Assembly: GCA_902779675.1 (NCBI GenBank)
Contig: CACZCK010000012.1
Coordinates: 16,556-80,555, forward strand
DNA length: 64,000 nt
From: an uncultured Coriobacteriaceae bacterium
GTDB taxonomy: Bacteria > Actinomycetota > Coriobacteriia > Coriobacteriales > Atopobiaceae
Direction of reading: 5' to 3'
The notes under the pieces are model-generated. The model was not told the DNA's origin. It ran no database searches and saw nothing but the letters and a program-made list of their open reading frames with translations. How positions within the stretch are numbered: the first letter of the stretch is position 1; the number at the start of each line of letters is the position of its first letter. The translations under genes and the position numbers were made by a program. This document shows, piece after piece, positions 4,670-34,537 of this stretch.

Positions 4670-6058
4670 CTACAGCTGCAACAGCGTCAGGAGGTTGCGC
4701 AGCTGGATGTTGAGGCAGTTGCTGTACTGGACCATGTCGTTGAGCGTGCGGTAGTCGACCCAGAAATAGCCGTCCGGCAGGACGCCCAGCTCGTGCTCGG
4801 TCACCTCGATGATGGCATTGCGGTTCTGTTCGTGATAGAAGCGACCGCCCTCCTCGGAGAGCAGTACAGAGCACAGCACACCCTCACCACGCTCGAGCTT
4901 CGAGAGGTACAGGGCCTCCACCACATCCGTTTCCAGCTTGGGGCTCGTAGGCTCCAGCTGGATGCTCGGCGAGACCTCAGCGCAGTCGAAGCTGCCAATC
5001 TCGTGGCGAATGCGCACCAAGAACTCGCGCACGCCGTCCCGCACACGTGTGAACAGCCCCAGCACCATCACACCGTTGGCCGCAACCAACGGCTGCTCCC
5101 AATACTGAACCTCACGCTCCTCTATCTCGATGCGACAGTAGATGACGCGGTAGTCAAAGGGTGTGCGGCAAGCTATCTCGCGTGGGCGCAACTCCCAGCT
5201 CTTCATGCTCTTCAACGGAACCAGCCGATGCGTCGTAGGCAGGAACATCTTGACGTCATTGAGCTTGTTGAACACGCGATGCAAGGTGTCGGACTTCCTG
5301 GGACCGAACATCGACGCAAAGAGCGCCTTGTCGGCAAAAAGTTCCTCGATGCTCTGCAGCTCGTTCTCCTCGAGGAGATCGCTGTCGAAAGGTATGCCCG
5401 ACAGCACCGTGCGCGTGTCCATGTTGACCACGTTGTCACGCTTCATGAGCTCTTTGATCTGTCCGAGGGTCATCCACTTGTGCGAGGGAATCACCTCGAT
5501 TTCCTCGTCCACCAGGATGATGATGTTGCGGTTGCGCTTCTTGTAGAAGCGTGATGCCTGTTCGGACTGCACCTGATCGACGATGATGGGGTAACGAGCC
5601 GAGTTCTCGAAGTACGAGAGGTACGCAGGGGCCTTGCCGCCATGCATGCGCGTGAAGTTGCTCTTGGTAGCCTGCACTGTCGGGGACAGCTGGATGGTGT
5701 TCACGTTACCCGGCTCGATCTTGGCTTGCATCAGGAAGTTGAGCACTCCGCCTATCTTCTTGCAGATGATGCCCAGATAGCCGATCTCGGGCTGCAGGAT
5801 GACCGGCTGTTCGCGAACGATGTGATCGTCCTCTATCTCCTGGTAGCCTGCCACCTGAAAGAAGCTGCGGCTCTTGTTGCGAATGTAGCCGGTCTTCTCG
5901 TCGTAGAACCAGAATCCGTTATACGAGAAGTCCACCTGCTGGATGTTGACCTGCAGGTTCCTGCTGCGAAACGCAAGCCAATCCTCGATCTCGTCCATGG
6001 TGCTCGCGGTACCCTGCGTGTTGGCCCACGACTCGATAATGTCCAGCTGTATGCTCAT
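4670..6058 (-). CDS. NDP-hexose 2,3-dehydratase (EvaA/TylX3-type)
   Basis: A 462-residue, two-repeat protein of the NDP-hexose 2,3-dehydratase family. The family removes the C2 hydroxyl of NDP-4-keto-6-deoxyglucose, the first committed step to 2,6-dideoxysugars. The diagnostic EPGN...QLSPTVQATKSNFTR...HGG block lies at about 115-140. A degenerate second copy (about 350-375) contains SPSIQLEPT. The start ATG at 6058 is preceded by GGAAG and sits 12 bp after the upstream oxidoreductase stop; the open frame runs further upstream without family similarity. Such enzymes are best known from antibiotic clusters; here the neighbours point to a surface glycan. Confidence 0.87.
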   Translation of the reverse strand: MSIQLDIIESWANTQGTASTMDEIEDWLAFRSRNLQVNIQQVDFSYNGFWFYDEKTGYIRNKSRSFFQVAGYQEIEDDHIVREQPVILQPEIGYLGIICKKIGGVLNFLMQAKIEPGNVNTIQLSPTVQATKSNFTRMHGGKAPAYLSYFENSARYPIIVDQVQSEQASRFYKKRNRNIIILVDEEIEVIPSHKWMTLGQIKELMKRDNVVNMDTRTVLSGIPFDSDLLEENELQSIEELFADKALFASMFGPRKSDTLHRVFNKLNDVKMFLPTTHRLVPLKSMKSWELRPREIACRTPFDYRVIYCRIEIEEREVQYWEQPLVAANGVMVLGLFTRVRDGVREFLVRIRHEIGSFDCAEVSPSIQLEPTSPKLETDVVEALYLSKLERGEGVLCSVLLSEEGGRFYHEQNRNAIIEVTEHELGVLPDGYFWVDYRTLNDMVQYSNCLNIQLRNLLTLLQL

Positions 6059-6069
6059 GCTCTTCCGTC

Positions 6070-7044
6070 TCACGCGTGTCGGGCGATACTCCTGACGTCC
6101 TCCACCAGCCTCGCTTGCCGAAGTATGCCCTCGTAGGACCGCTCCCGCTCGTCGGGGTCGCTCACCTGTGTCACAAAGGCGGCAATGGACTTCTCGAAGT
6201 GCGCGTCTGCTCGCATCTCGATGTCGCTGACGCCCGCATTGGTCTGGACGAGCGCGTGCGGCACGAAACCCGTTGGAGCCGTGAACACGCGGTCGGTGGT
6301 CAGCGTTCCGGTGCTCCCCCACACCTCCATGCGGCATCGATACCCGCAGTCCATGCCGAAGCCGCCCTGGAAGACCAGCCCCTCGTCATTGACCAAGGTG
6401 ACCGACCCCACCATGTCGACCTCGTAGCCCGGCAGAGAACGCAGCTCTGCGGCCTCGACACGTGCTGTCGGCCCGAGTAGGAGCGTCGCCAACTTGATGA
6501 CGTAACCGCCTGCATCGAGCAGTGCGCCGCCCCCCAGCTCGCGCAGGTAGCGGAAGTCGTTGGCGGCACGTAGGGGAAAGCCGAAGTCCGCGCGATACAG
6601 CCGAACGTCACCCACGACGCCCTCGTCCAGCAGACCAGCAATGTCCTCGAGCTGGGCGTGGTACTGGAACATGTAGTTCTCATGCAAAGCAAGTCCACGC
6701 TCACGAGCCTCCCGCACCAGACGCTCGCTGTCTGCAAGCGTCGTTGTGGAGGGCTTCTCGACCAGCACGTGCTTGCCCGCCTCAAGCGCACGCGAGGCCC
6801 ACTGGCAATGCAGCGCTGGCGGCTGGGGAACATAGACCGCGTCCAGGTCGGGACGGGCGAGCAAGTCCTCGAAGCTCATCTCCACCTCCAAGGGCCACTG
6901 TTCGGTGAACGAGGCGACTCGAGCCTGATCGTACGCCTCGGCAATCACCACGGCCTCTATGCCATCAACGTTTGCAATCGCCGGCATAAAGCGATTGCGC
7001 GCGATGTCGGAGCAGCCAAGGATGCCCAGCCTCAGGGACGCCAT
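6070..7044 (-). CDS. Gfo/Idh/MocA oxidoreductase, probable NDP-hexose 3-ketoreductase
   Basis: A 324-residue NAD(P)-dependent oxidoreductase. It has a Rossmann dinucleotide motif GILGCSDIARNRF (7-19), the family EKP motif (96-98), and a C-terminal substrate domain with LLDAGGY. Members such as KijD10/TylC1 reduce the unstable 3-keto product made by NDP-hexose 2,3-dehydratases. Its place directly upstream of such a dehydratase makes that role the likeliest, by inference. The start overlaps the stop of the upstream aminotransferase gene by one base (TGATG), so translation is probably coupled. Confidence 0.87.
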   Translation of the reverse strand: MASLRLGILGCSDIARNRFMPAIANVDGIEAVVIAEAYDQARVASFTEQWPLEVEMSFEDLLARPDLDAVYVPQPPALHCQWASRALEAGKHVLVEKPSTTTLADSERLVREARERGLALHENYMFQYHAQLEDIAGLLDEGVVGDVRLYRADFGFPLRAANDFRYLRELGGGALLDAGGYVIKLATLLLGPTARVEAAELRSLPGYEVDMVGSVTLVNDEGLVFQGGFGMDCGYRCRMEVWGSTGTLTTDRVFTAPTGFVPHALVQTNAGVSDIEMRADAHFEKSIAAFVTQVSDPDERERSYEGILRQARLVEDVRSIARHA

Positions 7045-8177
7045 CAGGCACCCCGAAGGACGTCATTGAGAGCACTCACCACATTGTTGGCGTCTTCGAC
7101 GGTCATGTCCGCGTACAGTGGAAGGCGCAGTACGCGCTCGCCATAGTCCTCCGTCACCGGGCAGGCCGCGGGATCGTACCCGATCTTCAGGCCCATGGGC
7201 GCGGAATGCAGCGGCACGTAACAGATGTACGGGTACATCCCCTGCTCGTTGAGGCGCGAGACGACCTGCGTGCGAATCTCACTCGTCGGGCATACGATGT
7301 TGTACATGTGACCATTGTGCGTGGCGCCCTCGGGCACGACCTGGCGCGCCAGCAGACCATCGTTCTCCAGGTCAACCAGCCCCTCGTGATAGGCATTCCA
7401 TACGGCCAGACGCTTGGCCATGATCTCGTCGTAGCGCTCGAGCTGCGCATACAGTATGGCCGCCAGCACGTCAGAGGGGAGGAACGAAGAGCCCACGTCG
7501 TGCCAGGTATACTTGTCGACCATGCCCTTCAGGACCTGGCGGCGATTGGTGCCCTTCTCGCGCAGGATCTCGGCCCTATCGAGGAAGCTCTCGTCGTTGA
7601 GCACGAGTCCGCCTCCCTCGCCCATGGCATAGTTCTTGGTCTCGTGGAAGCTGTAGCAGCCAAACTGGCCAAAGGTACCGCAGTTGCGACCCCTATAGGT
7701 GGAGCCGAACGACTGGGCGGAGTCCTCGATGATGTAGAGTCCGTACTCGCGCGCTATGGCCTCGATGGCGTCATACTCACAGGGCATGCCCGCGTAGTCC
7801 ACGGTGTAGATGGCCTTGGTCTTGGGCGTGATGAGCCCCTCGATCAGGGTCTCGTCGATGTTCATCGTGTCACGCCGGATGTCACAAAAGACCGGCTGCG
7901 CGCGACGCAGCATGAAGGCGTTGGCCGTGGAGGAGAAGGTGAAGGACGGCACGATCACCTCGTCACCTGGCTCAAGGTCGATGAGCAGGGACGCAAGCTC
8001 GAGCGCCGTGGTGCCCGACGTGGTCAGCAGCATGTTCTCGATACCCAGCAGCTCGCGCACGCGATCGTAGACCTTCATGGTATAGGGGCCGTCACCAGAC
8101 AGACGTCTCCCCTTGAGCGCGTCGACAACGTACTCTATCTCCTTGTCGGTGATGGAAGCCCGATTGAACGGAATCAT
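7044..8177 (-). CDS. DegT/DnrJ family sugar aminotransferase, WecE/RffA-like
   Basis: A 377-residue PLP-dependent enzyme closest by eye to dTDP-4-amino-4,6-dideoxygalactose transaminase. Visible features are SGDG (27-30), the PSFTFSSTANAF stretch (77-88), EDSAQ (151-155, PLP-ring Asp), the Schiff-base Lys181 in FHETKNYAMGEGG, and the REKGTNR / VDKYTWHDVGSS family blocks. It would transaminate a 4-ketosugar, here probably the product of the dehydratase/ketoreductase pair, giving a 4-amino-2,4,6-trideoxyhexose. That product is an inference. It overlaps the upstream glycosyltransferase by 4 nt (ATGA). Confidence 0.9.
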   Translation of the reverse strand: MIPFNRASITDKEIEYVVDALKGRRLSGDGPYTMKVYDRVRELLGIENMLLTTSGTTALELASLLIDLEPGDEVIVPSFTFSSTANAFMLRRAQPVFCDIRRDTMNIDETLIEGLITPKTKAIYTVDYAGMPCEYDAIEAIAREYGLYIIEDSAQSFGSTYRGRNCGTFGQFGCYSFHETKNYAMGEGGGLVLNDESFLDRAEILREKGTNRRQVLKGMVDKYTWHDVGSSFLPSDVLAAILYAQLERYDEIMAKRLAVWNAYHEGLVDLENDGLLARQVVPEGATHNGHMYNIVCPTSEIRTQVVSRLNEQGMYPYICYVPLHSAPMGLKIGYDPAACPVTEDYGERVLRLPLYADMTVEDANNVVSALNDVLRGA

Positions 8178-9247: not shown

Positions 9248-9331
9248 CCAATAGCCTCCGTTGACAGAAGTCAGAACAACGCGGCAGCTACGTCTTCGGC
9301 GACTTTGCGACCCGTCGGTATGCCCTCGCGT

Positions 9332-11683: not shown

Positions 11684-11809
11684 GAGACACCTCCGATAGC
11701 GGCGCGCGGTCCGCTCGTAGACGGCGAGGTTATCCAGTCACATCTCTACTATTATCGTTCAATTATCCGATGGGCATACGCATTCATGGCTTCATCATAA
11801 GTCTGATTT

Positions 11810-13021
11810 TCAAGCCACATTAATCTTTACAAGATCATTAATATTATTCAATATAGCATGCATTTGATTAAGCGATTCGAAGCGAAGAAAGATGTGTCCA
11901 ATTCCTTCACTTCCGTTACGTATTTTCTTAACAGAATCACCTTCGGTTACATATATTAATGTTCGATAGATAAAAGGCTTGAGAGACCTATCTATCTCGA
12001 TTGATTGAAGAATGCCATCTTTGCATGAATGCACAACATGAGTGGCTATAAATCTATCATTGCCATCAAAAGAAGTATCATCTGGCATATCACCCATTGC
12101 ACATCGTACAGACGCTTCGACGAGATCGATACCACTGATATCGGATAGCTGTTGCGGAATGAGGTTTCCTCCCGCACGCCCACCAAGCTCGATGATATAG
12201 GGCTTGCCGCCAGGTCCCACGATGACCTCGAGGTTCATCTCGCCAAACTGGAGTCCCAGGCTGTCAACCAGTCGTTGCACCTCTTGTTTCAGCATCGCCC
12301 GAAACTCCGGCGCGAGGCTCGTCGGATAGGCCTTGCCAACGGGAACGAGCTTTGCCACGCGCTCGTCGCGCAGGCAATCCATGAGGCCCCAGAACGTGAC
12401 CTTTCCGTTCACCACGAAGATGTCTCCCCCAATAAGGTGGGGATACTCGTAGGTGAGGAACTCCTCAGCGACCAGAACGTGGTTGCGAGAATACTCGCGT
12501 GCCTTCGCAAGGGCTTCTTTCAATCCCTGGTTGCCAGACTCAATGATGGTCACGCCTTTTGACCCCGAGGAGTCGGTTGGCTTGATGATGATTGGCCGCC
12601 GAAGCCCCTCGCAGATCCGCGAGACCTCTTTGTCGCTGTCGTCTACACCAAACGAGACGGCCTGAGGACAGTTGAATCCATGCTCGCTCAGGTAGGCCCT
12701 GAATAGGTGCTTGTTGCTCAGAGTCTCTACGCTGGCAAGGGGGTTCGTCGGAAGCCCCAGCTGTTCCGCGACATACGCCGCACTTGGGAGGGCCGCATCC
12801 GAGCCGAACGAGATGACACCGTCCACATGCTCGCGTTTTGCCACCTCAAGCATGGCATCCCTGTCGGTCGTGCTCTTAAGGTAGAACACGTCCGCTTCGT
12901 ACTGTCCGGGGTTGTCGGTCAGGTAGTCGCAGAGCACCGTCCGATAGCCCAGACGCTTTGCCGCCTGTATCGCGCAAACCTGATGCTGTGCCCCACCCAA
13001 AAGTAATAACGTCTTCTGCAT
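11810..13021 (-). CDS. ATP-grasp carboxylate-amine ligase family protein
   Basis: A 403-residue ATP-grasp enzyme. It has an N-terminal Rossmann-like pre-ATP-grasp fold (LLLLGGAQHQ), a central lid IIIKPTDSSGSKGVT and VAEEFL, and metal-binding residues in FGEMNLEVIVGPGGKPYIIELGGRAGGN. Such enzymes join a carboxylate to an amine or hydroxyl through an acyl-phosphate. It resembles biotin-carboxylase-like and PurK-like ligases of glycan and natural-product loci. The start at 13021 is chosen because AGGTGG lies 6 nt upstream; ATGs at 13027 and 13042 are poorly placed. The 3' third (11810-12150) is markedly AT-richer than its neighbours. It is a paralogue of the ATP-grasp gene at 15514. Confidence 0.85.
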   Translation of the reverse strand: MQKTLLLLGGAQHQVCAIQAAKRLGYRTVLCDYLTDNPGQYEADVFYLKSTTDRDAMLEVAKREHVDGVISFGSDAALPSAAYVAEQLGLPTNPLASVETLSNKHLFRAYLSEHGFNCPQAVSFGVDDSDKEVSRICEGLRRPIIIKPTDSSGSKGVTIIESGNQGLKEALAKAREYSRNHVLVAEEFLTYEYPHLIGGDIFVVNGKVTFWGLMDCLRDERVAKLVPVGKAYPTSLAPEFRAMLKQEVQRLVDSLGLQFGEMNLEVIVGPGGKPYIIELGGRAGGNLIPQQLSDISGIDLVEASVRCAMGDMPDDTSFDGNDRFIATHVVHSCKDGILQSIEIDRSLKPFIYRTLIYVTEGDSVKKIRNGSEGIGHIFLRFESLNQMHAILNNINDLVKINVA

Positions 13022-13055
13022 GCTCATCCACCTAGACGTCAAATCTAGTTCTCTT

Positions 13056-13985
13056 TTATTGGTCTATGTTGATGCTCTCCCGCTCGATGTATTGAGGCGT
13101 TCCATTCAGGATCATCACTGCATCCCCCACATACTCGCCAAGGATTCCGAGAACAAACAGTATGAGTCCGGAAAGGAAGAGCATCAGGCAGATAATCGAA
13201 GTCCATCCTGCCGCGATGTTTGGATTGATAAGCTTTCTGATGATGGAGACGATGCCAGCAAGAAACCCGATACCAGCAGTTGTCACGCCGACTATCGACG
13301 CAATTCGCAAGGGCACCACCGAGTAGTTGAAATAGGACAGCCAGAGCCTCATGAGCTTGAGTAGGCTGTATCCAGACTCCCCGTACTCTCTCTTGTGATG
13401 CTGTATCGTAACGTTCCCTATGTTGTGGGTCGTTCTAAAGAAGAGTCCGTCAACATAGGGCTCGAAGCTCTTGCAACGTATGACCTCATCGCAGACGGCC
13501 CTCGTGATGCACCAGAAGTTGGATGACCGGACGCTCTTTGGGCGACCCAGCAACACGCGAGCGGAAACCTTGTTAAACCAACTGGTCAGGCGCTTGCCTG
13601 CTGTGTTGGTGCTCTTCTCGTACTCGCCATAGACCAGATCGTATCCCTCGGTCATCTTCTCGAGAATGGGCCTGATCTGCGATGGGTGGGTCTGCAGGTC
13701 GTCGTCCATGCCCAGTATCAGATCGCCGCGTGCGTGGTTCATGGCACACATCAAGGCGCCGTGCTGGCCGAAGTTCCGCATGAGGCTGACGCCGTGCACG
13801 CAGGGGTATAAGGTCGCCAACCGCTGGATCTCGGCATATGTCCCATCGGGCGAGCAATCGTTAACCAATACGAACTCGCACTGGTAGCCATCCATTTTGT
13901 CGAACTCGGCCATCGTCAGCTCGACTAGTTCGGCTATGGTGTGCTCAGACCGGTAGCAGGGCACGACGACCGACACCAACATCAT
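13056..13985 (-). CDS. GT2 glycosyltransferase, polyprenyl-phosphate type (GtrB/ArnC-like)
   Basis: About 309 residues. The N-terminal GT2 domain opens with VSVVVPCYRSEHTI and carries NDCSPDGT and the metal-binding DDDLQTHP. Two hydrophobic helices near the C-terminus (around residues 225-290) match the DPM1/GtrB/ArnC subgroup. That subgroup moves a sugar from a nucleotide donor to undecaprenyl phosphate at the inner membrane face. The start is at the first of two adjacent ATGs (13985), after AAGGAG; the second (13982) is also possible. It lies downstream of the divergent aminotransferase promoter region. Confidence 0.88.
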   Translation of the reverse strand: MMLVSVVVPCYRSEHTIAELVELTMAEFDKMDGYQCEFVLVNDCSPDGTYAEIQRLATLYPCVHGVSLMRNFGQHGALMCAMNHARGDLILGMDDDLQTHPSQIRPILEKMTEGYDLVYGEYEKSTNTAGKRLTSWFNKVSARVLLGRPKSVRSSNFWCITRAVCDEVIRCKSFEPYVDGLFFRTTHNIGNVTIQHHKREYGESGYSLLKLMRLWLSYFNYSVVPLRIASIVGVTTAGIGFLAGIVSIIRKLINPNIAAGWTSIICLMLFLSGLILFVLGILGEYVGDAVMILNGTPQYIERESINIDQ

Positions 13986-14267
13986 GACTCTCCTTGACAG
14001 AACGCAGGGCGGAACTCTTTGCCCCCTCAGTTTACCTGCTTCAGAACCTCGAGCCGCCCACTCCCGTCCTTCTCTCAAAATGAACCCTTTTATATCATCT
14101 GCCCGGATACTATGGCGCTTTTACATCCAGAGTCGGCGGTCTGTATTTGCAGAGAAGTCTCGTGACCTTCCGTCTTAGGCAGCCAAGGAGCGGTATCGTA
14201 TAGTCTTACGCGACGCAATCAATGAAAGTCGTATGCAATAACTGCCCATGAACTGGGAGGATAGCGG

Positions 14268-15407
14268 ATGATTCCGAAGTTGAACCCAACTGTCGAGTCG
14301 ATTCCTGAGGCTCTTTCCATATTTGTCAATCAGCTCGTCTACGACAAGAAGAGCCGTGGGGAGCGCGTCTACACGTTCTCTCTCGGAGAGGCGTTCTTCG
14401 ACATCCCGCGCTTCGAAATCGATGACGAGACCTTCCAGCGCGGCTACCACTACTCGAGCAGCATGGGACAGCCCAAGCTCCGCGAGCGGCTTGCCGACAT
14501 GTATCGTCGCAGCTATGGCGTCGTCGCCGATCCGCAGACCGAGATTCTGGTCAGTTGCGGCTCAAAGCCCATTCTGTTCATGGTGATGCAGGCCGTTCTC
14601 GAGGCCGGAGACGAGGTGCTGGTTCACGAGCCTGGCTGGCTTTCGTACAAGGAGCAGGTCAAGCTTGCGGGGGGCGTGCACGTCCCCATTCCCTACTACG
14701 ACGACATCTACGACTGGGAGAAGTACCTCACCGACCGCAGCAAGGTCATCGTCATCAACAACCCCAACAACCCCTCGGGGCAGCTCTACTCGCGCGCCGA
14801 GCTCGAGCACCTGCTGAGGGTGGCAGAGGAACACGACCTCTTCATCGTCTCCGACGAGGCCTACAGCGACTTCCTTATGCCGGGCGACTCGTTCGTCTCG
14901 ATGGCCGACGTCGATCCCACGCGCGAGCACACCATCGTGGTCAACTCGCTCTCCAAGAACATGGGGATGTCGGGATGGCGCGTGGGCTACACCATTGCCC
15001 ACAAAGATGTCATCGCCCAGCTGCTCAAGCTGAATCAGCACCTCATCACGTGTGCTGCCACCGTCTTGCAAAACTATATGGCAGACCATTTCGACGAGAT
15101 TCTCGCAGCGACGCTCCCCCAAGCCGTCGAAACCGCTCAGAAGCGCCGCAAGGTTCAAGACATTCTTGACGAGGTGGGAATCGGCTACCTCAAGGGGGTC
15201 GGCACGTTCTACTTCCTCATCGACGTGTCCTCGTACCCAGGCGAAACTGAAGAGTTGGTTCGGACCCTTCTCACGGACCACAACATAGCGACTGTCCCCG
15301 GCAGGGCCTACGGCGAATCTACGGCTGGATTCGTGCGTTTCGGCATCGGCGTCGAGTCCCTCGAAGACATCGAGAAGTGTCTCAGGGTCATCAAGTCCCT
15401 CATCTAA
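14268..15407 (+). CDS. Class I/II PLP aminotransferase
   Basis: A 379-residue fold-type I aminotransferase of the AspC/aromatic group. It contains NNPNNPSG (164-171), SDEAY (195-199) for the PLP ring, the Schiff-base Lys230 in NSLSKNMGMSGWRVGY, and a C-terminal VRFGIG with the carboxylate-binding Arg. RBS GGGAGGA is 6 nt before ATG. It is first in a six-gene plus-strand set with two ATP-grasp enzymes. It could therefore supply or modify an amino acid that those ligases attach to a glycan or lipid precursor; this is an inference. The substrate cannot be predicted. Confidence 0.9.
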   Translation: MIPKLNPTVESIPEALSIFVNQLVYDKKSRGERVYTFSLGEAFFDIPRFEIDDETFQRGYHYSSSMGQPKLRERLADMYRRSYGVVADPQTEILVSCGSKPILFMVMQAVLEAGDEVLVHEPGWLSYKEQVKLAGGVHVPIPYYDDIYDWEKYLTDRSKVIVINNPNNPSGQLYSRAELEHLLRVAEEHDLFIVSDEAYSDFLMPGDSFVSMADVDPTREHTIVVNSLSKNMGMSGWRVGYTIAHKDVIAQLLKLNQHLITCAATVLQNYMADHFDEILAATLPQAVETAQKRRKVQDILDEVGIGYLKGVGTFYFLIDVSSYPGETEELVRTLLTDHNIATVPGRAYGESTAGFVRFGIGVESLEDIEKCLRVIKSLI

Positions 15408-15513
15408 CGAGCGACGGGCGCGTCCTCGCCCGTCTCGCATGACGCATCGACCCGGGCGAGGCCACCGAAACAACCCATGCCTCTTGACCGACATACGACC
15501 ACAAGGATTTGAC

Positions 15514-16719
15514 ATGGCTCGTGTACTCATACTCCCTGGTAGCAGGTGGCAGATACAGCTCGCGCAGCGAGCGAAGGACCTCGGGCATTGGCTCTGCGTG
15601 GTCAGCCCCGAGGAGCATCCGCCCTGCGCCGACCTTGCAGACGACTTCTTCCGCAGCGACATCTTCGCCGTCGATGCCATCGAACGGCATGCTCGCGAGC
15701 ACGACATACAGGCAATCCTCTCCGACGAGTGCGACATTGCCATGCCCGTGGTAGCCGAGCTCGGCGAGAGGCTGGCCCTGCCCGCCCTCTCTGCGGAGGC
15801 TGCTGCGCTCTACACCGACAAGTCCCTGATGCGAGCCTTCTGCGACAAGCATGGCATTGGGTCCGCTGCCTACGCGGTCTGCGAGACCGAGGAGGAGGCC
15901 GTCGCGTTCCTCGATGGATTGGGAAAGTCGGCCATCATAAAGCCTCTCAACAGCAATGCCAGCCATGGCGTCTTTACGCTGCACACCAGCGATGACGTGC
16001 GTCGGCATTTCGCCGAGTCGCTTTCGTTCTCGCGTCCCAGCTCGTCTGTGCTCGTGGAGCAGTTCATAGAGGGTACGGAGTTCACGGTCGACGGCATCAA
16101 GACTCCCTACGCCCACTACACCCTCGCCGTCAGCGAGAAGCGTCACTTCGCGCACAACGAGAACATCGCGAGCGACCTCTATTTCACGCATCGCAACCCT
16201 CGCTTTGACTACGACCTGTTGAGGGCGACCAATGATGCCTTTGTCATGGCGTCACCTCTGGAGTTTGGCTTCACCCATGCCGAATACAAGTTCGAGGACG
16301 GTGCCTTCAAGCTCATCGAGATCGGCGCGCGCGGTGGTGGCAACATGATCTCGTCGGTCATCACGCAATACCTCTCGGGATATGACACCTATCGGTATCT
16401 GATCGATGCGTCTTTGGGTCAGGCCACCGACGAGGACTTCTCGATCCGTCCGGAGTACGAGAGCCGTGCGGCCATCCTCAAGTTCTTCCACACGCCGCAA
16501 GGTGGTGGCACGGTCGCACGCATGGAGGGTCTCGACTACCTCCAGAACGAGCCAGCCATCAAGGAGTTCCAGCTGAACTTCGCCGTTGGCGACCACATCG
16601 AGGATGCCAAGAGCGACTCCGCACGCATCGGTTTCTACATCGCCTGCGCCGAGACCTCGGAGCAGCTTGATGCTATCGTACGTACCGTCGACGAGCGATT
16701 CCGCATCGTTCTTGCCTAG
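15514..16719 (+). CDS. ATP-grasp ligase family protein
   Basis: A 401-residue ATP-grasp protein with the same plan as the enzyme at 11810. It has an N-terminal fold (MARVLILPGS), SAIIKPLNSNASHGVF (ATP lid), VLVEQFIEGTEFTVDG, and a metal site in FKLIEIGARGGGN. The ligand pocket is not recognisable. The ATG at 15514 follows AAGGA by about 6 nt; an upstream in-frame ATG at 15439 has no such site. It sits between the aminotransferase and a second, different ATP-grasp gene. This suggests stepwise ligation of an amino acid or organic acid during glycan modification; this is an inference. Confidence 0.85.
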   Translation: MARVLILPGSRWQIQLAQRAKDLGHWLCVVSPEEHPPCADLADDFFRSDIFAVDAIERHAREHDIQAILSDECDIAMPVVAELGERLALPALSAEAAALYTDKSLMRAFCDKHGIGSAAYAVCETEEEAVAFLDGLGKSAIIKPLNSNASHGVFTLHTSDDVRRHFAESLSFSRPSSSVLVEQFIEGTEFTVDGIKTPYAHYTLAVSEKRHFAHNENIASDLYFTHRNPRFDYDLLRATNDAFVMASPLEFGFTHAEYKFEDGAFKLIEIGARGGGNMISSVITQYLSGYDTYRYLIDASLGQATDEDFSIRPEYESRAAILKFFHTPQGGGTVARMEGLDYLQNEPAIKEFQLNFAVGDHIEDAKSDSARIGFYIACAETSEQLDAIVRTVDERFRIVLA

Positions 16720-16735
16720 GAAAGGGTGGGAGACC

Positions 16736-17881
16736 ATGAAGAGCGAGCACCTGGAAGACCTTCTGGCGGACGGCATCTCCCGCAAGTTTGCCACGTACTA
16801 CCTTGACCTGGCCATGAAGGAGTATGACAACCCAGCATACGACCCCTCGTATGTCAAATGGGCTCACGAACACGGTTTCTTGGCCGACTGCGCCTATGCC
16901 TACGACCTGAACGACGACAACGTCGAGCATTACCTGTCCGACTACGACTACTACAAGGTCTGGCCCGTCAACAACTGGACCCGTGTGTGGATCAACGACA
17001 AGCTGACGCTCAAGCAGGTCCTCGATGGGACCGAGTTCTCCGAGTTCATGCCCCGCTACTACTTCTACACCGCTCCGGAGGGGCTCAGGCGCCTGACCGA
17101 TGCGCCACAGGCACCCAAGCCCGCAACCGCAGAAGAACTCTGCGACGTGCTGAGGACGGTTGGCGAGTTTGCCTGCAAACCCTGCAACGGCACGACCTCG
17201 CTGGGGTTCGCGCATCTGGCATACCATGACGGTAGCTACCACATCGACGACCAGAGCGTCGACGCCTCGTCGATCGAACGGTTCCTCGCAGAGCACCCCA
17301 ACTACGTGTTCACCGAGTACCTGCGGCCCAGTCGCCAGTTTGCCCCCTATAGCCCGCACATCCACACCCTGCGCATCGTGACGGTCAACGAGAACGGCAT
17401 GCCTCGCATCGTGGGCGGTTACCTGCGCATCCCCAACAAGTTCTCTGGCGAGGCCAACTACATCATCATCGACAAGGACAACGCCGAGAAGTTCAACGTA
17501 TTCATCGACTTTAACGGTGAGACGGGTGCCTTCGGACCTGGCAAGCTGACTTGCGTCAACAGGTCGGTCCTGACCAACGAGCATCCCGACAACGGTCTGC
17601 CCCTCTCGGGCACCATCGAGAACTACGACGAGCTCAAGCGCATTGTGATGGGCATCGCCCAGCGTTTCAGCACCATCGAGTACATGGGCTTTGACATCGG
17701 CGTGACCGACGCGGGCTTCAAGTGCATGGAGATCAACTCTCATCCTGGCATCAAGTACATGCAGATCTTCAAGCCCATCTACGACGACCCGTTCCTTGGT
17801 GACTACTTCCACAGGAAGGTGGCGGCAATCGACGGGCTCGACGCCGAGGGCAAGCACGCTCGCAACGGCATTGCGCGATAG
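16736..17881 (+). CDS. Sugar-transfer-associated ATP-grasp protein
   Basis: A 381-residue protein of the ATP-grasp group found in polysaccharide loci. ACKPCNGTTSLGF forms the ATP loop, VFTEYLRPS the adenine/ribose strand, and THTLRIVTVN-like HIHTLRIVTVNENG a central strand. Metal ligands lie in YMGFDIGVTDAGFKCMEINSHPGI. No biochemical function is firmly set for this group; an acyl or aminoacyl ligation to a sugar is the usual guess. ATG at 16736 follows GGTGGGAG, 16 bp after the preceding stop. An upstream extension of the frame only overlaps the previous gene. Confidence 0.83.
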   Translation: MKSEHLEDLLADGISRKFATYYLDLAMKEYDNPAYDPSYVKWAHEHGFLADCAYAYDLNDDNVEHYLSDYDYYKVWPVNNWTRVWINDKLTLKQVLDGTEFSEFMPRYYFYTAPEGLRRLTDAPQAPKPATAEELCDVLRTVGEFACKPCNGTTSLGFAHLAYHDGSYHIDDQSVDASSIERFLAEHPNYVFTEYLRPSRQFAPYSPHIHTLRIVTVNENGMPRIVGGYLRIPNKFSGEANYIIIDKDNAEKFNVFIDFNGETGAFGPGKLTCVNRSVLTNEHPDNGLPLSGTIENYDELKRIVMGIAQRFSTIEYMGFDIGVTDAGFKCMEINSHPGIKYMQIFKPIYDDPFLGDYFHRKVAAIDGLDAEGKHARNGIAR

Positions 17882-17887
17882 TCGCCT

Positions 17888-18325
17888 ATGCTGACGTACA
17901 CCCACATCGCAGAAGAGGGCGAGGTCCGCAGGGTGCTGAACGCCTGTGCACCCGCGTTCCACGATCAGTCTTATAACGACCCCGAACGCATTGCGGAGCT
18001 CGCAAAGAAGTTCGCACAAGCGGCACGGGTGCTGGTTGCCTACGAGCAGGACGAACCGCGCGGCTTCTGCGCCTACTATGCCAACGACGCGCAGAGCAGA
18101 ATCGCGTATGTCTCGATGATTATCGTGGCGCCCGGCATGCAGGGGTTGAGCATTGGCTCGCATCTGCTCGAGGGCGCCATGGACGACGCCCGAACCTGTG
18201 GTATGGCGCACATGCGCCTTGAAGTGGCTTGCGACAACGAGGGGGCCGTGCGTTTCTACCATCGTCACGGATTCACCGAGGAGTCTGTGCAGGGCGACCA
18301 CTGCTTCCTCAGACGGCCGCTCTAA
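17888..18325 (+). CDS. GNAT-family N-acetyltransferase
   Basis: A 145-residue single-domain GNAT. Its acetyl-CoA-binding strand/loop is visible as IIVAPGMQGLSIGSHLLEGA (around 77-97; family pattern Q/RxxGxG/A, here QGLSIG). The C-terminal RLEVACDNEGAVRFYHRHGF is typical. It begins 6 bp after the ATP-grasp stop and so belongs to the same unit. It may N-acetylate an amino sugar or the amino acid handled by the neighbours; acceptor unknown. Confidence 0.87.
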   Translation: MLTYTHIAEEGEVRRVLNACAPAFHDQSYNDPERIAELAKKFAQAARVLVAYEQDEPRGFCAYYANDAQSRIAYVSMIIVAPGMQGLSIGSHLLEGAMDDARTCGMAHMRLEVACDNEGAVRFYHRHGFTEESVQGDHCFLRRPL

Positions 18326-18342
18326 GCTTGAGGGAGCTAAAT

Positions 18343-19965
18343 ATGCATCGTGGGCAACATTGGGCTGAGGGTAGGAAGGCCGGACGCACAGCCGAGCAAA
18401 GACTTGCAGTTGTCGTCATGCTTGTCCTCGTGGCTGCGACAGGCCTGTTCTGGTGTGCCCAGAAGAAGGGCTGGTTCTTGGACGAGGTATACACCTATGG
18501 CCTTTCCAATAGCCACTACGCCCCCTTTGTCAGAGACCTCAAGTCCGGGAACATGGTGGATGCGATCTATGACCGCACCGAACTGACCGACTACCTCTCG
18601 GTACAGGACAACGAGCGCTTCGACATAGGATCGGTTTGGTACAACCAGCAACAGGATGTGCATCCGCCCCTCTACTACCTGTTGGTCAACTTCTGTTCCT
18701 CGCTCTTTCCCGAGTCATATTCCAAATGGCTGGTACTCGTTCCAAACCTGCTGATACAACTGTTGACGGCATGCGTGCTCTTCCGCCTGCTGCTCGACTT
18801 GACTGACCGCGTAGAAACATCCATCTTCGCAACGCTGCTGTACGCGATCTCCACCACAGGCATAGAGACCGTCATCTATGCGCGCATGTACGTCCTGCTG
18901 ACACTGTTGACGGTCTTGCTTGCACTCAATCTCAACCGCTTGCTCGATGACTGGAACCTGTGGCGCGTTCTGGGCATTTCCGTTCTCATAACACTTGGCA
19001 TGCTCACGCAATACTACTTCGTGTTCTACGCCTTCTTCTCCTGTCTGGCGTGCCTGCTCGTCCTCTTGGCCAGACGCGACTTCCGCCACGCGTTGGTCTT
19101 TTGCGTGTTGGGCGTCTCGGGCGTGGCGTTGTTCGTAGTCATCTGGCCTGCGGTCATCACCCATGTGCTGACGGGCCAAGCTGGTGGCCCGTCAGGGACG
19201 GGAGTGCTCGCGAGCCTCCTTGCCTTTGGCAACTATCCCCACAAGCTCCTGATCTACGCCTATTACATCCTTAAGGGGATGCCAGTCGGCGCAGTGTTGT
19301 GGGCCTTGTCGCTGGCTAGCCTGCCAATGCTGGTGCACCTACGCAGGAAGCGCTTTCCGGATGATGCCCACATTCCGTATTCGAAGCTGTTCGTCGTGGT
19401 GGTACCCGCCTTCGTCACCTTGGTGGTGGCGGCAGTCGCATCTCCGTACGAGCATCTGCGCTACGTCTACAACGTGTGCCCTCTCTTTTTCGTCGCCTTG
19501 GGAGTGCACCTCTCTCTGCTTGAAGGCACCGCTCCGACTCGTACGCTCCGCGTGGGATTCTCGACTGCAGTCATGCTCACCCTTCTGGGGTCGGCGGTGT
19601 GGCAGCCCGAGTATCTCTACCCGCAACAGGCCACGTATGAGGCAGAACTCGCCCCATATCAGGATGACCCCTGTGTCTTCCTAGACAACAACCACATCGT
19701 TCCTCTCACTCAAGAGATTCCTCGTCTCCTGGCCTTTGACGAGGTGTATGTCACCGACGACCCCTCCTCAGAGCGTCTTGCCGACTATATCGAACAACGC
19801 GACTCGACTGACGTGGTGGTCTATGTCAGTCTGTTTGGGGAGCACGACTCGTACAACACGGGAGACGCTGCCAACACCATGGCAGAAGCGCTGGGGTACC
19901 AAGACGTCGTGCCACTCTACGCGTATGACCATGTGAGAGCCTATCTCTTGCACGAAGGAGAGTGA
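18343..19965 (+). CDS. GT-C membrane glycosyltransferase (ArnT/PMT-like)
   Basis: About 540 residues with roughly ten to twelve hydrophobic helices. A first extracytoplasmic loop carries the GT-C type acidic motif (FLDEVYTYGLSNS, around 43-55) and QDVHPPLYYLLV. These match the ArnT/PMT superfamily, which moves sugars from polyprenyl-phosphate donors outside the membrane. The C-terminal 120 residues form a soluble tail. ATG at 18343 follows GAGGGAG by about 6 nt. Together with the downstream GtrB-like GT2 it forms a classical donor-maker plus transferase pair. Confidence 0.83.
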   Translation: MHRGQHWAEGRKAGRTAEQRLAVVVMLVLVAATGLFWCAQKKGWFLDEVYTYGLSNSHYAPFVRDLKSGNMVDAIYDRTELTDYLSVQDNERFDIGSVWYNQQQDVHPPLYYLLVNFCSSLFPESYSKWLVLVPNLLIQLLTACVLFRLLLDLTDRVETSIFATLLYAISTTGIETVIYARMYVLLTLLTVLLALNLNRLLDDWNLWRVLGISVLITLGMLTQYYFVFYAFFSCLACLLVLLARRDFRHALVFCVLGVSGVALFVVIWPAVITHVLTGQAGGPSGTGVLASLLAFGNYPHKLLIYAYYILKGMPVGAVLWALSLASLPMLVHLRRKRFPDDAHIPYSKLFVVVVPAFVTLVVAAVASPYEHLRYVYNVCPLFFVALGVHLSLLEGTAPTRTLRVGFSTAVMLTLLGSAVWQPEYLYPQQATYEAELAPYQDDPCVFLDNNHIVPLTQEIPRLLAFDEVYVTDDPSSERLADYIEQRDSTDVVVYVSLFGEHDSYNTGDAANTMAEALGYQDVVPLYAYDHVRAYLLHEGE

Positions 19966-19967
19966 GA

Positions 19968-20909
19968 ATGCACATTGCAGTAGTTGTGCCCTGTCATAAC
20001 GAAGAAGACTCCATCCCACACTTCGTGAATCGTATGACGTCGGTGGAACGTGACCTCACTCCATGGCTCACCGAACCAGTATCCTACGTTCTGGTCAATG
20101 ACGGCTCTACTGACGGCACGCTCGCGTGCATGCGAGAGCTCAACAAGCGGAACGATCGCTGGCACTACATCTCCTTCTCGCGTAACTTTGGCAAGGAAGC
20201 TGGCCTGCTCGCAGGCATGCGCATGGCCTTGGAGCTCGGGAGCACGCATGTCGCGGTTATGGATGCAGATCTTCAAGACCCTCCTGAGCTCTTGGTGCAG
20301 ATGTGCGAACGCATTGATGGGTCAGAGTTCGACGCCGTTGCCGCCTATCGCAAGACGCGTGAAGGCGAACCTCCCATTCGCAGCTGGTTCGCGCACAGAT
20401 TCTATGACTTCATAAACAAGGTCTCAGAGACTACGATGCGTGACGGGGCACGCGACTTTCGCCTGATGACTCGACGCATGGTGGAAGAGATCTGTGCCCT
20501 ACCCGAGGTTGGCCGGTTCTCGAAGGGCCTCTTCATGTGGGTTGGCTTCAAGACGGACTGGCTGGGCTATGACAACGTCGAGCGCGAGTTCGGTACCACC
20601 TCATGGAACTTCCTTGGACTTGTTCACTACGCCATTGATGGCATCTTGGCGTTCTCCATCTGGCCCCTCGAAGCAATCTCGGTCATTGGTGTGGCTCTTT
20701 CAGCCCTATCGCTGTTCTTCCTGCTGTTCATATTTATACGCGCGCTTCTGTTTGGTGATCCGGTAGCTGGTTGGCCTTCGCTGATCTGTGTCGTCACCCT
20801 GCTTGGCGGCGTGGAGATCCTTGGCATTGGCACCATCGGACTGTATCTCTCCAAGGTTTATTCCGAAGTAAAGAAGCGCCCAAACTATATCGTCGACGAG
20901 CAAAGATAG
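19968..20909 (+). CDS. GtrB-like undecaprenyl-phosphate glycosyltransferase (GT2)
   Basis: About 313 residues. GT2 domain: IAVVVPCHNEEDSI (3-16), VNDGSTDGT, VMDADLQDPPEL (metal-binding DAD), and KTREGEPPIRSWFAHRFYDFINK, the juxtamembrane amphipathic helix typical of GtrB/Ppm. Two C-terminal membrane helices follow. The protein should charge undecaprenyl phosphate with a sugar for the GT-C transferase encoded just upstream. ATG at 19968 is preceded by AAGGAG 7 nt away, 2 bp after the upstream stop; a GTG at 19962 is the alternative. It ends the plus-strand unit, with a strong terminator 50 bp later. Confidence 0.92.
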   Translation: MHIAVVVPCHNEEDSIPHFVNRMTSVERDLTPWLTEPVSYVLVNDGSTDGTLACMRELNKRNDRWHYISFSRNFGKEAGLLAGMRMALELGSTHVAVMDADLQDPPELLVQMCERIDGSEFDAVAAYRKTREGEPPIRSWFAHRFYDFINKVSETTMRDGARDFRLMTRRMVEEICALPEVGRFSKGLFMWVGFKTDWLGYDNVEREFGTTSWNFLGLVHYAIDGILAFSIWPLEAISVIGVALSALSLFFLLFIFIRALLFGDPVAGWPSLICVVTLLGGVEILGIGTIGLYLSKVYSEVKKRPNYIVDEQR

Positions 20910-20960
20910 CTCGCCTCACGTTCTTCCCATCCTTTCGAGGCCACCGCTCTCGATGACAAA

Positions 20961-20999
20961 GAAGCCGGGTCAACGAGCGTGTCTCGTTGACCCGGCTTC
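20961..20999. terminator. Convergent terminator, 17-bp perfect stem
   Basis: Arms at 20961-20977 and 20983-20999 (GAAGCCGGGTCAACGAG and its complement) enclose a 5-nt loop. TTCT follows on the plus strand and TTTGTC on the minus strand. It separates the plus-strand glycan unit from the convergent lectin/L,D-transpeptidase gene and may serve both. Confidence 0.88.
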
Positions 21000-21021
21000 T
21001 TCTAGCGCTCGTTTGAGCTAA

Positions 21022-23835: not shown

Positions 23836-24020
23836 TTGTCCACCAATCATACAATCCAAACCAATTGCATAGTTTGTAGATGATAACACTCGCTATGCCC
23901 TTGACCTTGCGTTCTTACTTCCCGTTCATCAGTTGCGAAGAAAGCAACCACAAATCTTGACGAATTCGAGCGCTTTGTTGCAGAAGCCACTGTAGAAGTG
24001 CCACCTTTGGCACGCATTCG

Positions 24021-24959
24021 TCAAAGTGTCGCGAAGGTGAGCGCCTCGCCGAGGTTACGCAGAGCACCGTGCTTCCAGGCATCACAGCGACCGAGGCCGA
24101 CAAGACGCTCGAGAGCCGAAGCGTCCCTGAGAGAGAGGTACGTATCGACCATCTGAGACTCCGTCGTCCCCAGTCGATCGCCAAACACGCGCCTGAACTC
24201 CTCCACCTGGGCGAAGGTGGCGCGGGCCGTGTCGCGCTTCTGATCCAGCGCAGCCAAGGCGCGCGCGACGGTAAAGCGATCGGCTCCCACTGAATTGTCT
24301 CCGTGCTGTCGATACGAGATCGTTGCCCGATCGAGATGGATTACCTCCCCAAAGGCAGCCACCACCAACGAGGCCCACCAGTCATGCATGATGAGGGCGT
24401 CTTCGTTCACCGTCTCCTGACAGAGCTCGAGCGCTGGGGCGTTGAGCATCATGGTGCAGCCCGTCACAACGCACGATGCGAGGAAATACCCCATGGTGAG
24501 CTTCGAGGCATCCATCCCCGAGTACGAAAGGAAGGAAGGCGACAGTTGCGCGAGGTTCTGGTCGACCACGCGCAGGTCGGTGCAGACCAGCAACGGCTTG
24601 CCCACGCGAATCTGCTCATAGTTGCGCATCGCGACCAGCGTGAGCTCGACCTTGTCCTCGTCCCACACGTCATCCTGGTCGCACGTCATCACATAGTCGG
24701 CTGTCGACAGCCTTATGAGCGCCATGAAGTGCCTCTTGGCACCTCCGTACCTTTCGCCATCCAACACCACATGTATTCGCTGGTCCATTGCCTCATACTC
24801 GCGAAGGATGGCAAGGGACCCGTCGCTCGAGCAGTCATCCGACACCAGAAGCTCCCAATGGCCGTAGGTCTGGTTTCTGATTGACTCGATCTGCTCGCGC
24901 AGATACTGCTCGCCGTTGTAGACGGCCATGAGAATCTGCACACAGGGGTTATCTACCAC
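24021..24959 (-). CDS. GT2 glycosyltransferase, rhamnosyltransferase-like
   Basis: About 312 residues. The N-terminus reads VQILMAVYNGEQYLREQI, followed by SDDCSSDGS and TCDQDDVW (metal-binding DQDD). The central MHDWWASL resembles rhamnosyltransferase-type GT2 enzymes (H-D-W-W motif). It is soluble. No ATG precedes the conserved start, so the GTG at 24959 is proposed; it overlaps the upstream gene by 11 nt, with GGTGG about 6 nt before it. The specific sugar is unknown. It is the second-last gene of the long minus-strand glycan series. Confidence 0.87.
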   Translation of the reverse strand: MVDNPCVQILMAVYNGEQYLREQIESIRNQTYGHWELLVSDDCSSDGSLAILREYEAMDQRIHVVLDGERYGGAKRHFMALIRLSTADYVMTCDQDDVWDEDKVELTLVAMRNYEQIRVGKPLLVCTDLRVVDQNLAQLSPSFLSYSGMDASKLTMGYFLASCVVTGCTMMLNAPALELCQETVNEDALIMHDWWASLVVAAFGEVIHLDRATISYRQHGDNSVGADRFTVARALAALDQKRDTARATFAQVEEFRRVFGDRLGTTESQMVDTYLSLRDASALERLVGLGRCDAWKHGALRNLGEALTFATL

Positions 24960-25965: not shown

Positions 25966-25967
25966 GT

Positions 25968-27419: not shown

Positions 27420-27516
27420 AGGTAGCGATCTTGTCTCCGTATGGGGCCAACCGAAACCGCGAGCACTCGCATCGGATAGCCAGTCCTTAGCTTGACGGCA
27501 GACCCCCGTTGCGGTT

Positions 27517-27533
27517 GCGCCGAACTTCGGCGC
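27517..27533 (-). terminator. Possible hairpin after DegT aminotransferase gene
   Basis: An 8-bp perfect stem GCGCCGAA/TTCGGCGC with a 1-nt centre lies 9 bp past the aminotransferase stop. No T-run follows on either strand, so it may be an mRNA-stabilising hairpin or a processing site instead of a terminator. Confidence 0.35.
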
Positions 27534-27541
27534 CTTGCCTG

Positions 27542-28654: not shown

Positions 28655-28657
28655 AAC

Positions 28658-30127
28658 TCAGGCCCCCTCTCGTGTACGCCCAAGTCTACCCGCACGAAGC
28701 GTGGAGACGAGGTAGGAGAGTTCTTCGACATGGAAGAGCCATGCCAGAGCAAGGTAAGCGATGGCCATGGCAAGGGCCTCGACAAAAACGAGCAGGAGGC
28801 CATCGAGGCCTGTGAGGCTGACGGTATGGGCAAGGGCCGAGGCGGCGGCAGCCAGCACGAACGCAGGTGCGATATCGCGAACCTGCTCGAGGTAGGAGTA
28901 GCCGATCACGCGCTTGTTGGGATAGGCGTTGATGAAGGTGGATGCGACGCCCACAAAGATGTAGCCGGCTACGATACCCACTAGGTCGCCCACCACAAAC
29001 GCCATGAACAGCAGCGTGACAAGCCCAACGGTCTTCTTGATCACCTCGAGGCGAAGGAACAGGTCGCTGCGCCCCATGCCGTTAAGTACCTGCAAGTTGG
29101 TCGTATGGATGGGAAGCAGCATGTAGATGATGCAGTACATCTGCAGGAAGGGCACGCTGGGAAGCCATTTCTCGCCCAGCAGAACCAGCACCAACGGCCG
29201 AGCGACAAGGGCGAAGGCGGTCATGGCGGGCACGATGAAGAACGTCGACGTCTTCAGGCCGCGCCGTGCCAAGGCCTTGACCCGTGCCGCATCGTCTTGC
29301 ACGCGAGAGACCGCAGAGAGCACCACCGGCTGGATGGATCCATCGAGAATCAGGCCAAGTGCCTGCGGATAGCGCTTGCCCTGCGTCACATAGCCAAGGT
29401 CGGTCTTGGTAAAGACGCGTCCGATGATGAGATCGGACAGGCTCTGGTAGCCTTGGTCAAGGAGTCCCGAGGCCAGCAGCTTCCACCCAAATCCAAAGAG
29501 CGTGCGCGCCCTGACGGGATCGAACACCAAACGGGGCTTCCATGGTATCTGGAAGGCAAGCACCACCGATTTGACCAGCTGGAAAAGCACCTGCTGGACC
29601 ACCAGGGCCCAGATGCCCACCCCAGCCATAGCCGAGGCGATGCCACCCGCACCCGATATCAGCGCCGCAAGGACGGTGGCGCGGAAGGTCTTCTCGAACT
29701 CGAGGTTTCGCGCAACGATCGCCTCTTGGGTGGCATTGTAGGCGTTGATGAGGAGCACCACTGTCAGGCCCCGCAGGGGCCACACGATCGCCGGCGCACG
29801 ATAGAAGTCCGCGACAGCGGGCGCGGTTACGAAGATTCCCGCATAGAGTGCCAGAGAGATGGCCAGGCTCATCCAAAAGACCGTTGAGTAGTCCCTTTCG
29901 TCTGCCTCGCTTGCCTGCACGATGGCCGTGTTGAGTCCTGACTGGACAAACACGTTGCCGATGTTGACGAACACGACCATGATGGCCAACAGGCCAAATT
30001 CCTCGGGCGAGAGGATGCGCGCCATCACGACTTGGACGACCAGCTGGATGACCGACGAGCCTCCCTGCTCGAACAGCTTCCAGAAGAACGATGTAAACGC
30101 CTTTTCCTTCAAGCTTTGCTTTGCCAT
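28658..30127 (-). CDS. Polysaccharide flippase, Wzx/MOP superfamily
   Basis: About 489 residues with 12 to 14 predicted helices. The N-terminal KAFTSFFWKLFEQGGSSVIQLVVQVVMARIL and SPEEFGLLAI segments are typical of lipopolysaccharide O-unit/teichuronic-type exporters of the MOP superfamily. FSDLIIGR-like SLSDLIIGRVFTKTDLGYVTQGKRYP is the central family block. It should flip an undecaprenyl-pyrophosphate-linked repeat unit. ATG at 30127 follows GAGG by 5 nt; an upstream extension of the frame is Arg-rich and unlike the family. No Wzy polymerase is obvious nearby unless one of the large membrane proteins fills that role. Confidence 0.9.
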   Translation of the reverse strand: MAKQSLKEKAFTSFFWKLFEQGGSSVIQLVVQVVMARILSPEEFGLLAIMVVFVNIGNVFVQSGLNTAIVQASEADERDYSTVFWMSLAISLALYAGIFVTAPAVADFYRAPAIVWPLRGLTVVLLINAYNATQEAIVARNLEFEKTFRATVLAALISGAGGIASAMAGVGIWALVVQQVLFQLVKSVVLAFQIPWKPRLVFDPVRARTLFGFGWKLLASGLLDQGYQSLSDLIIGRVFTKTDLGYVTQGKRYPQALGLILDGSIQPVVLSAVSRVQDDAARVKALARRGLKTSTFFIVPAMTAFALVARPLVLVLLGEKWLPSVPFLQMYCIIYMLLPIHTTNLQVLNGMGRSDLFLRLEVIKKTVGLVTLLFMAFVVGDLVGIVAGYIFVGVASTFINAYPNKRVIGYSYLEQVRDIAPAFVLAAAASALAHTVSLTGLDGLLLVFVEALAMAIAYLALAWLFHVEELSYLVSTLRAGRLGRTREGA

Positions 30128-30158
30128 GCAGACCTCGTCGGTTGGGGTTTCTTCGAAC

Positions 30159-31157
30159 CTACAGCCTACAGTAGATGCGGTAGGCCAAGGTGTGGAGCGG
30201 ACGCATGTATGTGTAGAGGAACGAGTCGATGCGCGCCGGCAGGCTCTCCGTGGCAAACGTCTCCGGCCAGTGTGACCTGAGCTGCCGGTAGTCGCGTATG
30301 TCCTTGCAGAACTCGTAGTCCATACGGTCGATGCCGCGTAGCACGGCATCGTGGAAACGACCGTCGGTGGCATCGTCGAGCGTCTTCAGCAGCGTGACGC
30401 GAGCGTCGTGCCGACGCTGTGCCACGGCGCGCATGTCGTCGCTCATGAGCGAGGTGCGATTGACCGAACTGCCCGCCATAAAGCGGTAGGCGCTCATGAT
30501 GCGGTCCAGATAGTACAGACCTCCCTCGTAGGTGGCCATGAAGGTCATGACCTTCTGGTCCCCGTCGGCGGCAAGCGCCCTCTGGGGCGACTGAAGATAG
30601 GCGGCAAAGGCATCACGACGCACAAAGATGCTATTGGTCGAGAAGCACTGCACGTGCGTGATCACGTCGTCCGGGTCCACGTTGCAGTCGCGCTCGTAGA
30701 ACCGCTTGACCGAGAGGCGCTTACCCGAGCTCGCCTGCACGTTCTCGTTGGCATGAACGCATCCGGCCAACGAGGGGTCCGCCTCCATGACGTCGAACTG
30801 ACGCTGGAGTTTGGTGGGGTCGGTAAAGTAGTCGTCTCCCTCGCACAGGGCAAGGTAGCGTCCACGCGCCTTTGGGAACAGGAAGCACTCGATGGGCATG
30901 TTGCCTTGCGAGTACTGGTTCTGGTCGTGGGTAATCGCCTGTATGCGGTCGGGGTAGCGTTCCTGATAGGAGAGCGCAATGTCCGCGGTTCCGTCAGTCG
31001 AGCAGTCATCGTTGACCAGAATCTCGAAGGGAAAGGAGGTCTCCTGCGCCAGAAAGCTCTCCAGTGCCTGGGCGATGTACGGTTCTTGGTTATAGGTAAT
31101 GCACAACACGCTCACCAAGGGTTCGCTGTCATGACATGTGTTTGTCTCTCGATCCAT
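30159..31157 (-). CDS. GT2 glycosyltransferase
   Basis: A 332-residue GT2 enzyme. It has LVSVLCITYNQEPYIAQALES (14-34), VNDDCSTDGT and LCEGDDYFTDP (metal-binding EGDDYW-type motif). The HANENV and QCFSTNSIFVRR segments follow, as in capsule and teichoic glycosyltransferases. No membrane helices. ATG at 31157 is 11 bp after the preceding stop with AGGGAAG upstream; a GTG at 31160 is possible. Confidence 0.88.
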   Translation of the reverse strand: MDRETNTCHDSEPLVSVLCITYNQEPYIAQALESFLAQETSFPFEILVNDDCSTDGTADIALSYQERYPDRIQAITHDQNQYSQGNMPIECFLFPKARGRYLALCEGDDYFTDPTKLQRQFDVMEADPSLAGCVHANENVQASSGKRLSVKRFYERDCNVDPDDVITHVQCFSTNSIFVRRDAFAAYLQSPQRALAADGDQKVMTFMATYEGGLYYLDRIMSAYRFMAGSSVNRTSLMSDDMRAVAQRRHDARVTLLKTLDDATDGRFHDAVLRGIDRMDYEFCKDIRDYRQLRSHWPETFATESLPARIDSFLYTYMRPLHTLAYRIYCRL

Positions 31158-31170
31158 CACGTGCACTTCC

Positions 31171-33231: not shown

Positions 33232-33267
33232 AGTTGCACTGCCTCATCTCATAGCGATCACTGTGCC

Positions 33268-33298
33268 AGATGCCACGGCAAAGCCGCCGACGGCATCT
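33268..33298. other. Intergenic hairpin
   Basis: Arms AGATGCC/GGCATCT with an inner CGGC/GCCG pairing form a stem-loop in the 115-bp gap between the GT2 gene at 33347 and the large membrane-protein gene. There is no T-run, so termination is uncertain. Confidence 0.4.
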
Positions 33299-33346
33299 CG
33301 TTCATTATGGACCAGAGAGTCCGACACGCACCTTGCAAGCGTCTTC

Positions 33347-34138: not shown

Positions 34139-34148
34139 GGGAGGGCTC

Positions 34149-34529: not shown

Positions 34530-34537
34530 GGGAACTC

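Follow-up and report, generated by a model that had tools for sequence, protein, structure and literature searches.

The window analysed here is a 64,000-nucleotide stretch from a 2.9 Mb Atopobiaceae genome whose closest named relative is the MAG UBA1367. It contains a surface-glycan locus of ~31 kb (~4.7–35.3 kb of the window) that is encoded nearly entirely on the minus strand and adjoins the gyrA, gyrB, recF-type, dnaN and dnaA genes, with tRNA-Ala and tRNA-Ile genes (36352–36569, minus strand) between the locus and gyrA. Inside the locus lies a plus-strand island (14268–20909) of six intact open reading frames, designated A–F. Both of its flanks, 4670–14078 and 21022–35296, carry glycan and surface genes on the minus strand. 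The features relevant to this analysis are:

4670..7044, minus strand, NDP-hexose 2,3-dehydratase and GFO/IDH reductase (PF03559, PF01408), predicted to yield the sugar in 2-deoxy form
7044..8177, minus strand, WecE-type dTDP-4-amino-4,6-dideoxyhexose transaminase (NF008687, 494 bits, cut-off 375; TIGR02379, 457 bits, cut-off 435)
11810..13042, minus strand, second LAL-type ATP-grasp (ATP-grasp Pfams, LAL_C2 weak); its family, ATPg3, is the most frequent direct neighbour of C homologues
13056..14078, minus strand, GtrB/PgfS/ArnC-like GT2 (NCBIfam hits under cut-off)
14268..15407, plus strand, A, class I (AspAT-like) PLP aminotransferase, 379 aa (PF00155, 211 bits)
15514..16719, plus strand, B, L-amino-acid-ligase (LAL)-type ATP-grasp, 401 aa
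16736..17881, plus strand, C, sugar-transfer-associated ATP-grasp (ATPgrasp_ST, PF14397), 381 aa
17888..18325, plus strand, D, GNAT acetyltransferase, 145 aa (PF00583, 67 bits)
18343..19965, plus strand, E, GT-C-like polytopic membrane protein, 540 aa (hydropathy, DE and HPPLYYLL motifs)
19968..20909, plus strand, F, GtrB/PgfS-like GT2 with two C-terminal TM segments (PF00535)
20959–21001, either strand, hairpin, probable bidirectional terminator
28658..30373, minus strand, Wzx-type flippase, also part of this glycan locus (PF13440)

After trimming, the likely starts are ATG at 15514 (B), 16736 (C), 18343 (E) and 19968 (F), and the intergenic gaps are 106 (A–B), 16 (B–C), 6 (C–D), 17 (D–E) and 2 nt (E–F). 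The original prediction of six closely spaced genes, inverted relative to the surrounding glycan genes, is borne out by the reading frames, the gaps and the strands of the flanks. A strong terminator was also thought to close the island. The hairpin is real, with 19-bp perfect arms (20959–20977/20983–21001) and an MFE of −37.5 kcal/mol (z −5.9). It was not called by the terminator consensus scan because its T-run lies within the stem. Since it is located between F and a convergent gene it may serve both strands, and it is probably a bidirectional terminator. A scan of 10–24 kb of the window against Rfam gave no match. The product of the convergent gene (21022–23889, minus strand) combines ~eight lectin repeats of the ricin type with an L,D-transpeptidase (YkuD) domain at its C-terminus, and may be a wall-crosslinking enzyme that binds glycan and is linked to this locus. 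A second ricin-repeat protein is encoded at 9332–11683.

The aminotransferase A was considered as a housekeeping AspAT or core gene, which was rejected as 138 of 140 genomes of the family lack a match at E≤1e-60. Among the 140 Atopobiaceae genomes a near-orthologue was found only in G123, and A is confined to the two Atopobiaceae that have near-orthologous B, C and D.

Domain content and fold both place B in the LAL family; its ligase activity is predicted. It matches PF18603 (LAL_C2), a domain shared with the L-amino acid ligases, at 53.8 bits (cut-off 29.4) and PF13535 (ATP-grasp_4) at 36 bits (cut-off 27). The structural model (pLDDT 93) has a full-length LAL fold, with a VIA Z of 39.4 to the LAL BL00235 (3vot; 377 residues, rmsd 2.6), 32.3 to RizA (4wd3) and 31–32 to BacD/YwfE. 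However, identity to these ligases is only ~17–19%, and B sits in a glycan locus.

C matches PF14397 at 63 bits (cut-off 31.4), as do 25/25 of its homologues. Residues K148, E194, R213, D320, E332 and N334 are invariant across these 25 proteins, and putative catalytic roles were assigned to them by motif position (Lys, Glu, Arg, Asp and ExN). The model of C (pLDDT 86) matched the ATP-grasp core of RimK, tubulin tyrosine ligase (TTL) and cyanophycin synthetase at Z ~11. Because the TM-scores are low (0.3–0.4), with ~12–17% identity, the likeness is limited to fold class. Searches of PDB sequences with C or a C profile gave no significant match. PF14397 enzymes are annotated merely as "sugar-transfer associated", and no characterised member was found in the searches made; literature searches on "sugar-transfer associated ATP-grasp" and on Coriobacteriia glycans found nothing on point. 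The kept ATP-grasp residues, the domains and the models suggest that both B and C are intact enzymes of the amide-forming ATP-grasp type. Some of the more distant ATPgrasp_ST proteins also contain a fused nucleotidyltransferase-like domain (weak Pfam match). Two of ~1000 aa (L073 7952–11104 and L076 6815–9790) carry this domain at the N-terminus, followed by two ATPgrasp_ST-like regions of which the first is apparently degenerate.

Thirty-one neighbourhoods bearing a C homologue, the window itself excluded, were tabulated to examine which genes recur beside C. The original prediction had called for such a search of C together with homologues of B, and a LAL-type ATP-grasp was indeed near C in 22/31 neighbourhoods, commonly on the same strand and within 250 bp (absent in 9/31). 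Ten Atopobiaceae genomes contain C as well as LAL hits at E≤1e-15, and 15/15 of these hits are within 10 kb of C; from genome size, we estimate the chance of a LAL hit falling so near C at about one in a hundred. A Wzx flippase and a DesI-type DegT protein were each near C in 17/31 neighbourhoods, and a WecE-type 4-aminosugar transaminase in 13/31 (absent in 18/31). The other island genes are rare beside C (A in 2 neighbourhoods, D in 1, F in 1 and E in 0). F had been taken as the GtrB-like partner, but the minus-strand gene 13056–14078, not F, represents the GtrB-like GT2 type found repeatedly in the vicinity of C (12/31 neighbourhoods). Another PLP-type protein (cluster 9) lies beside C and LAL ATP-grasps in 8 neighbourhoods (L036 4626–5609, L029 8666–9748 and six others). 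Its L029 member has no Pfam or NCBIfam match, and a relationship to DegT (hhalign probability 22%) is only suggestive.

Genes A–C were found together in two other places. In the closest relative (L025/L027) identity to the window is 86% for A, 75% for B, 74% for C and 51% for D, with the D orthologue directly after C. Here A is separated from B by an ATP-grasp and a GT2 gene, both on the minus strand; therefore A need not be co-transcribed with the rest. The second carrier is a Bacteroidales MAG (L026) in which the order is DegT, an A-like gene (30% identity), B (47%), an RraA-like aldolase and C (53%), within a capsule-like (CPS-like) cluster of 41% GC. The aldolase (9211–9969) is a possible source of a branched 2-oxo acid on which A could act. 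Thus the aminotransferase and two ATP-grasp ligases, proposed earlier as a functional core, recur as A-B-C(-D) in two Atopobiaceae and as A-B-C in the Bacteroidales MAG. In the tree of C, the window, UBA1367 and Bacteroidales sequences form one 100/100 clade apart from the other Coriobacteriales homologues (~40–46% identity). Since C occurs in just 1/393 Bacteroidales genomes, lateral transfer is the simplest reading, suggesting that A-B-C spread laterally. Contamination of the MAG is an unlikely origin for the match, as GC is 36–45% throughout versus ~58%. A search of 395 Bacteroidota genomes for further B returned a single distant protein, and a search for more cassettes on plasmids returned only remote haloarchaeal ATPgrasp_ST proteins, with B absent.

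Neither E nor F is present in the other two carriers, and the pair belongs to a module separate from A–D. E is multi-spanning and has a GT-C-like loop (WFLDEVYTYG...HPPLYYLL). Pfam gave nothing above cut-off for this protein, even with the E-value limit relaxed to E<10, so its assignment to GT-C is provisional and comes from its membrane topology and this loop. Homologues of E were found only in G041 and G132, apart from A–D and in loci without C; the G041 locus (L062 6665–15566) holds five in tandem, far from the C of that genome. The closest NCBIfam model to F is PgfS (NF047588, 275 bits), and a homologue with 59% identity is present in G091. E and F resemble the Pgf system of Streptococcus mutans (PgfS, PgfM1, PgfE, PgfM2; PMC5856776) in that F is closest to PgfS and E is polytopic like PgfM1. 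However, F falls under the 500-bit equivalog cut-off for PgfS, and the glycosylated adhesin of that system has no link to E and F here. No PgfE epimerase linked to E and F was found among the six genes or their immediate flanks.

The sugars available at the locus bear on the acceptor. The 2,3-dehydratase, GFO/IDH reductase and WecE-type genes stand in a row at 4670–8177 (minus strand), a predicted 4-amino-2,4,6-trideoxyhexose pathway, and the genome encodes a dTDP-glucose 4,6-dehydratase. Established deoxysugar chemistry and these genes imply that a dTDP-4-amino-(2),4,6-deoxyhexose is made and that its amine is a plausible acceptor, with the WecE-type transaminase (7044..8177) as the possible source of that amine.

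We propose, at a probability of about 0.5, that the glycan locus gained A–D by lateral transfer as an accessory cassette, whose function is to couple an amino acid or short peptide to a sugar of the glycan. A would transaminate a 2-oxo acid to give the amino acid used. B would activate a carboxyl group as an acyl phosphate and form an amide with an amine, the simplest candidate being the 4-amino group of the dTDP-4-amino-deoxysugar from the WecE-type transaminase. C, as a RimK/TTL-like enzyme, would add a second residue or make the amide to the sugar, and D may acetylate the free amine as a cap. The product would be built into the glycan and then flipped by Wzx. E and F would act separately as a GtrB/PgfS-type undecaprenyl-phosphate sugar transferase and GT-C unit, adding a side sugar outside the cell. 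The analysis itself establishes gene content, family membership, fold class, catalytic residues, recurrent neighbourhoods and the common clade of C; the substrates, the order of the steps, the acceptor and the target of E and F are inferred. We know of no structure of such a glycan for this organism. Several observations weaken the proposal for A–D. LAL and WecE-type genes are absent from 9 and 18, respectively, of the 31 C neighbourhoods, two minus-strand genes split A from B in the relative, and D occurs in one other locus only. With just 30% identity, the Bacteroidales A might be an AspAT-like enzyme that was recruited independently. A bolder version, which we regard as speculative and rather unlikely, is that A-B-C(-D) is a mobile cassette of Actinomycetota and Bacteroidota that makes its own dedicated amino acid and, by two ATP-grasp ligations in succession, builds a short, capped surface glycopeptide on an amino sugar without tRNA or ribosome.

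Amide formation on surface polysaccharides has a demonstrated precedent. In the Campylobacter jejuni HS:2 capsule, the ATP-grasp Cj1438C amidates capsular glucuronic acid (PMC11800379). Like C it belongs to a surface-polysaccharide locus and forms an amide on a glycan sugar, but it comes from another Pfam family, carries a fused GT2 and uses the carboxylate of GlcA; a LAL partner is not described in the available text of that report. Aravind and co-workers (PMC4431377, citing Iyer 2009) predicted operons that combine linked ATP-grasp ligases and a GNAT acting as the cap-forming enzyme. Those operons likewise have two ligases and a GNAT, with successive ligation and an acyl cap predicted, but the cases given there are R2K/CDC123-type families in conflict systems, whereas the window has PF14397 and LAL types with an aminotransferase in a glycan locus. 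In view of these two sources, the earlier statement that no described pathway has this set of genes was too strong.

The Campylobacter case also raises the question of whether C could be an amidoligase that acts on a uronic acid carboxyl, joining an amine supplied or extended by A and B to a glucuronic-type residue of the glycan. Cj1438C is a TupA-like ATP-grasp that does form such an amide (PMC11800379), and C has the conserved Arg typical of amide ligases, a feature described in PMC4431377. A uronic acid acceptor is possible since the genome encodes a UDP-sugar dehydrogenase. However, this sole dehydrogenase is on another contig, away from the glycan locus, which leaves amidation of a uronic acid as an alternative; 4-aminosugar transaminases are encoded near C instead, and the Pfam scan of C gave PF14397 with no match to the TupA ATP-grasp family. 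On this evidence we hold it to be unlikely. A LAL next to a class I aminotransferase is the layout known from bacilysin, which makes it conceivable that the product of A-B-C-D is a soluble metabolite of dipeptide type, resembling bacilysin or dapdiamide, and that these genes are in the glycan locus by chance. B matches the LAL structures strongly. Its matches to the dipeptide-synthase models are weak and far under cut-off (BacD 26.7 vs 850 bits, DdaF 49.2 vs 840 bits), the island is without an exporter or resistance gene, and genes for Wzx, WecE and GtrB-like proteins are repeatedly found next to C homologues, all of which make a soluble product distinctly unlikely.

Finally, all six genes might constitute one pathway in which F puts an aminoacyl sugar on undecaprenyl phosphate and E transfers it. 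F belongs to a Und-P transferase family, and in this genome the six genes share one strand with close spacing. Such a pathway is nevertheless improbable, as the other two cassette carriers lack E and F, E homologues occur elsewhere in loci without C, and GC3 is lower in F (0.66) and E (0.72) than in A–D (0.77–0.84). The original prediction had treated the six genes as one system and named a failure to travel together as one observation that would speak against it. E and F do not accompany A–D, and we reject the six genes as one conserved unit.

The recurrent pairing of C with LAL-type and WecE-type genes in Coriobacteriales offers a concrete substrate hypothesis for PF14397. If true, attachment of amino acids by A–D would explain amino acid decoration of surface glycans in these bacteria, with possible consequences for charge, phage receptors and host recognition.
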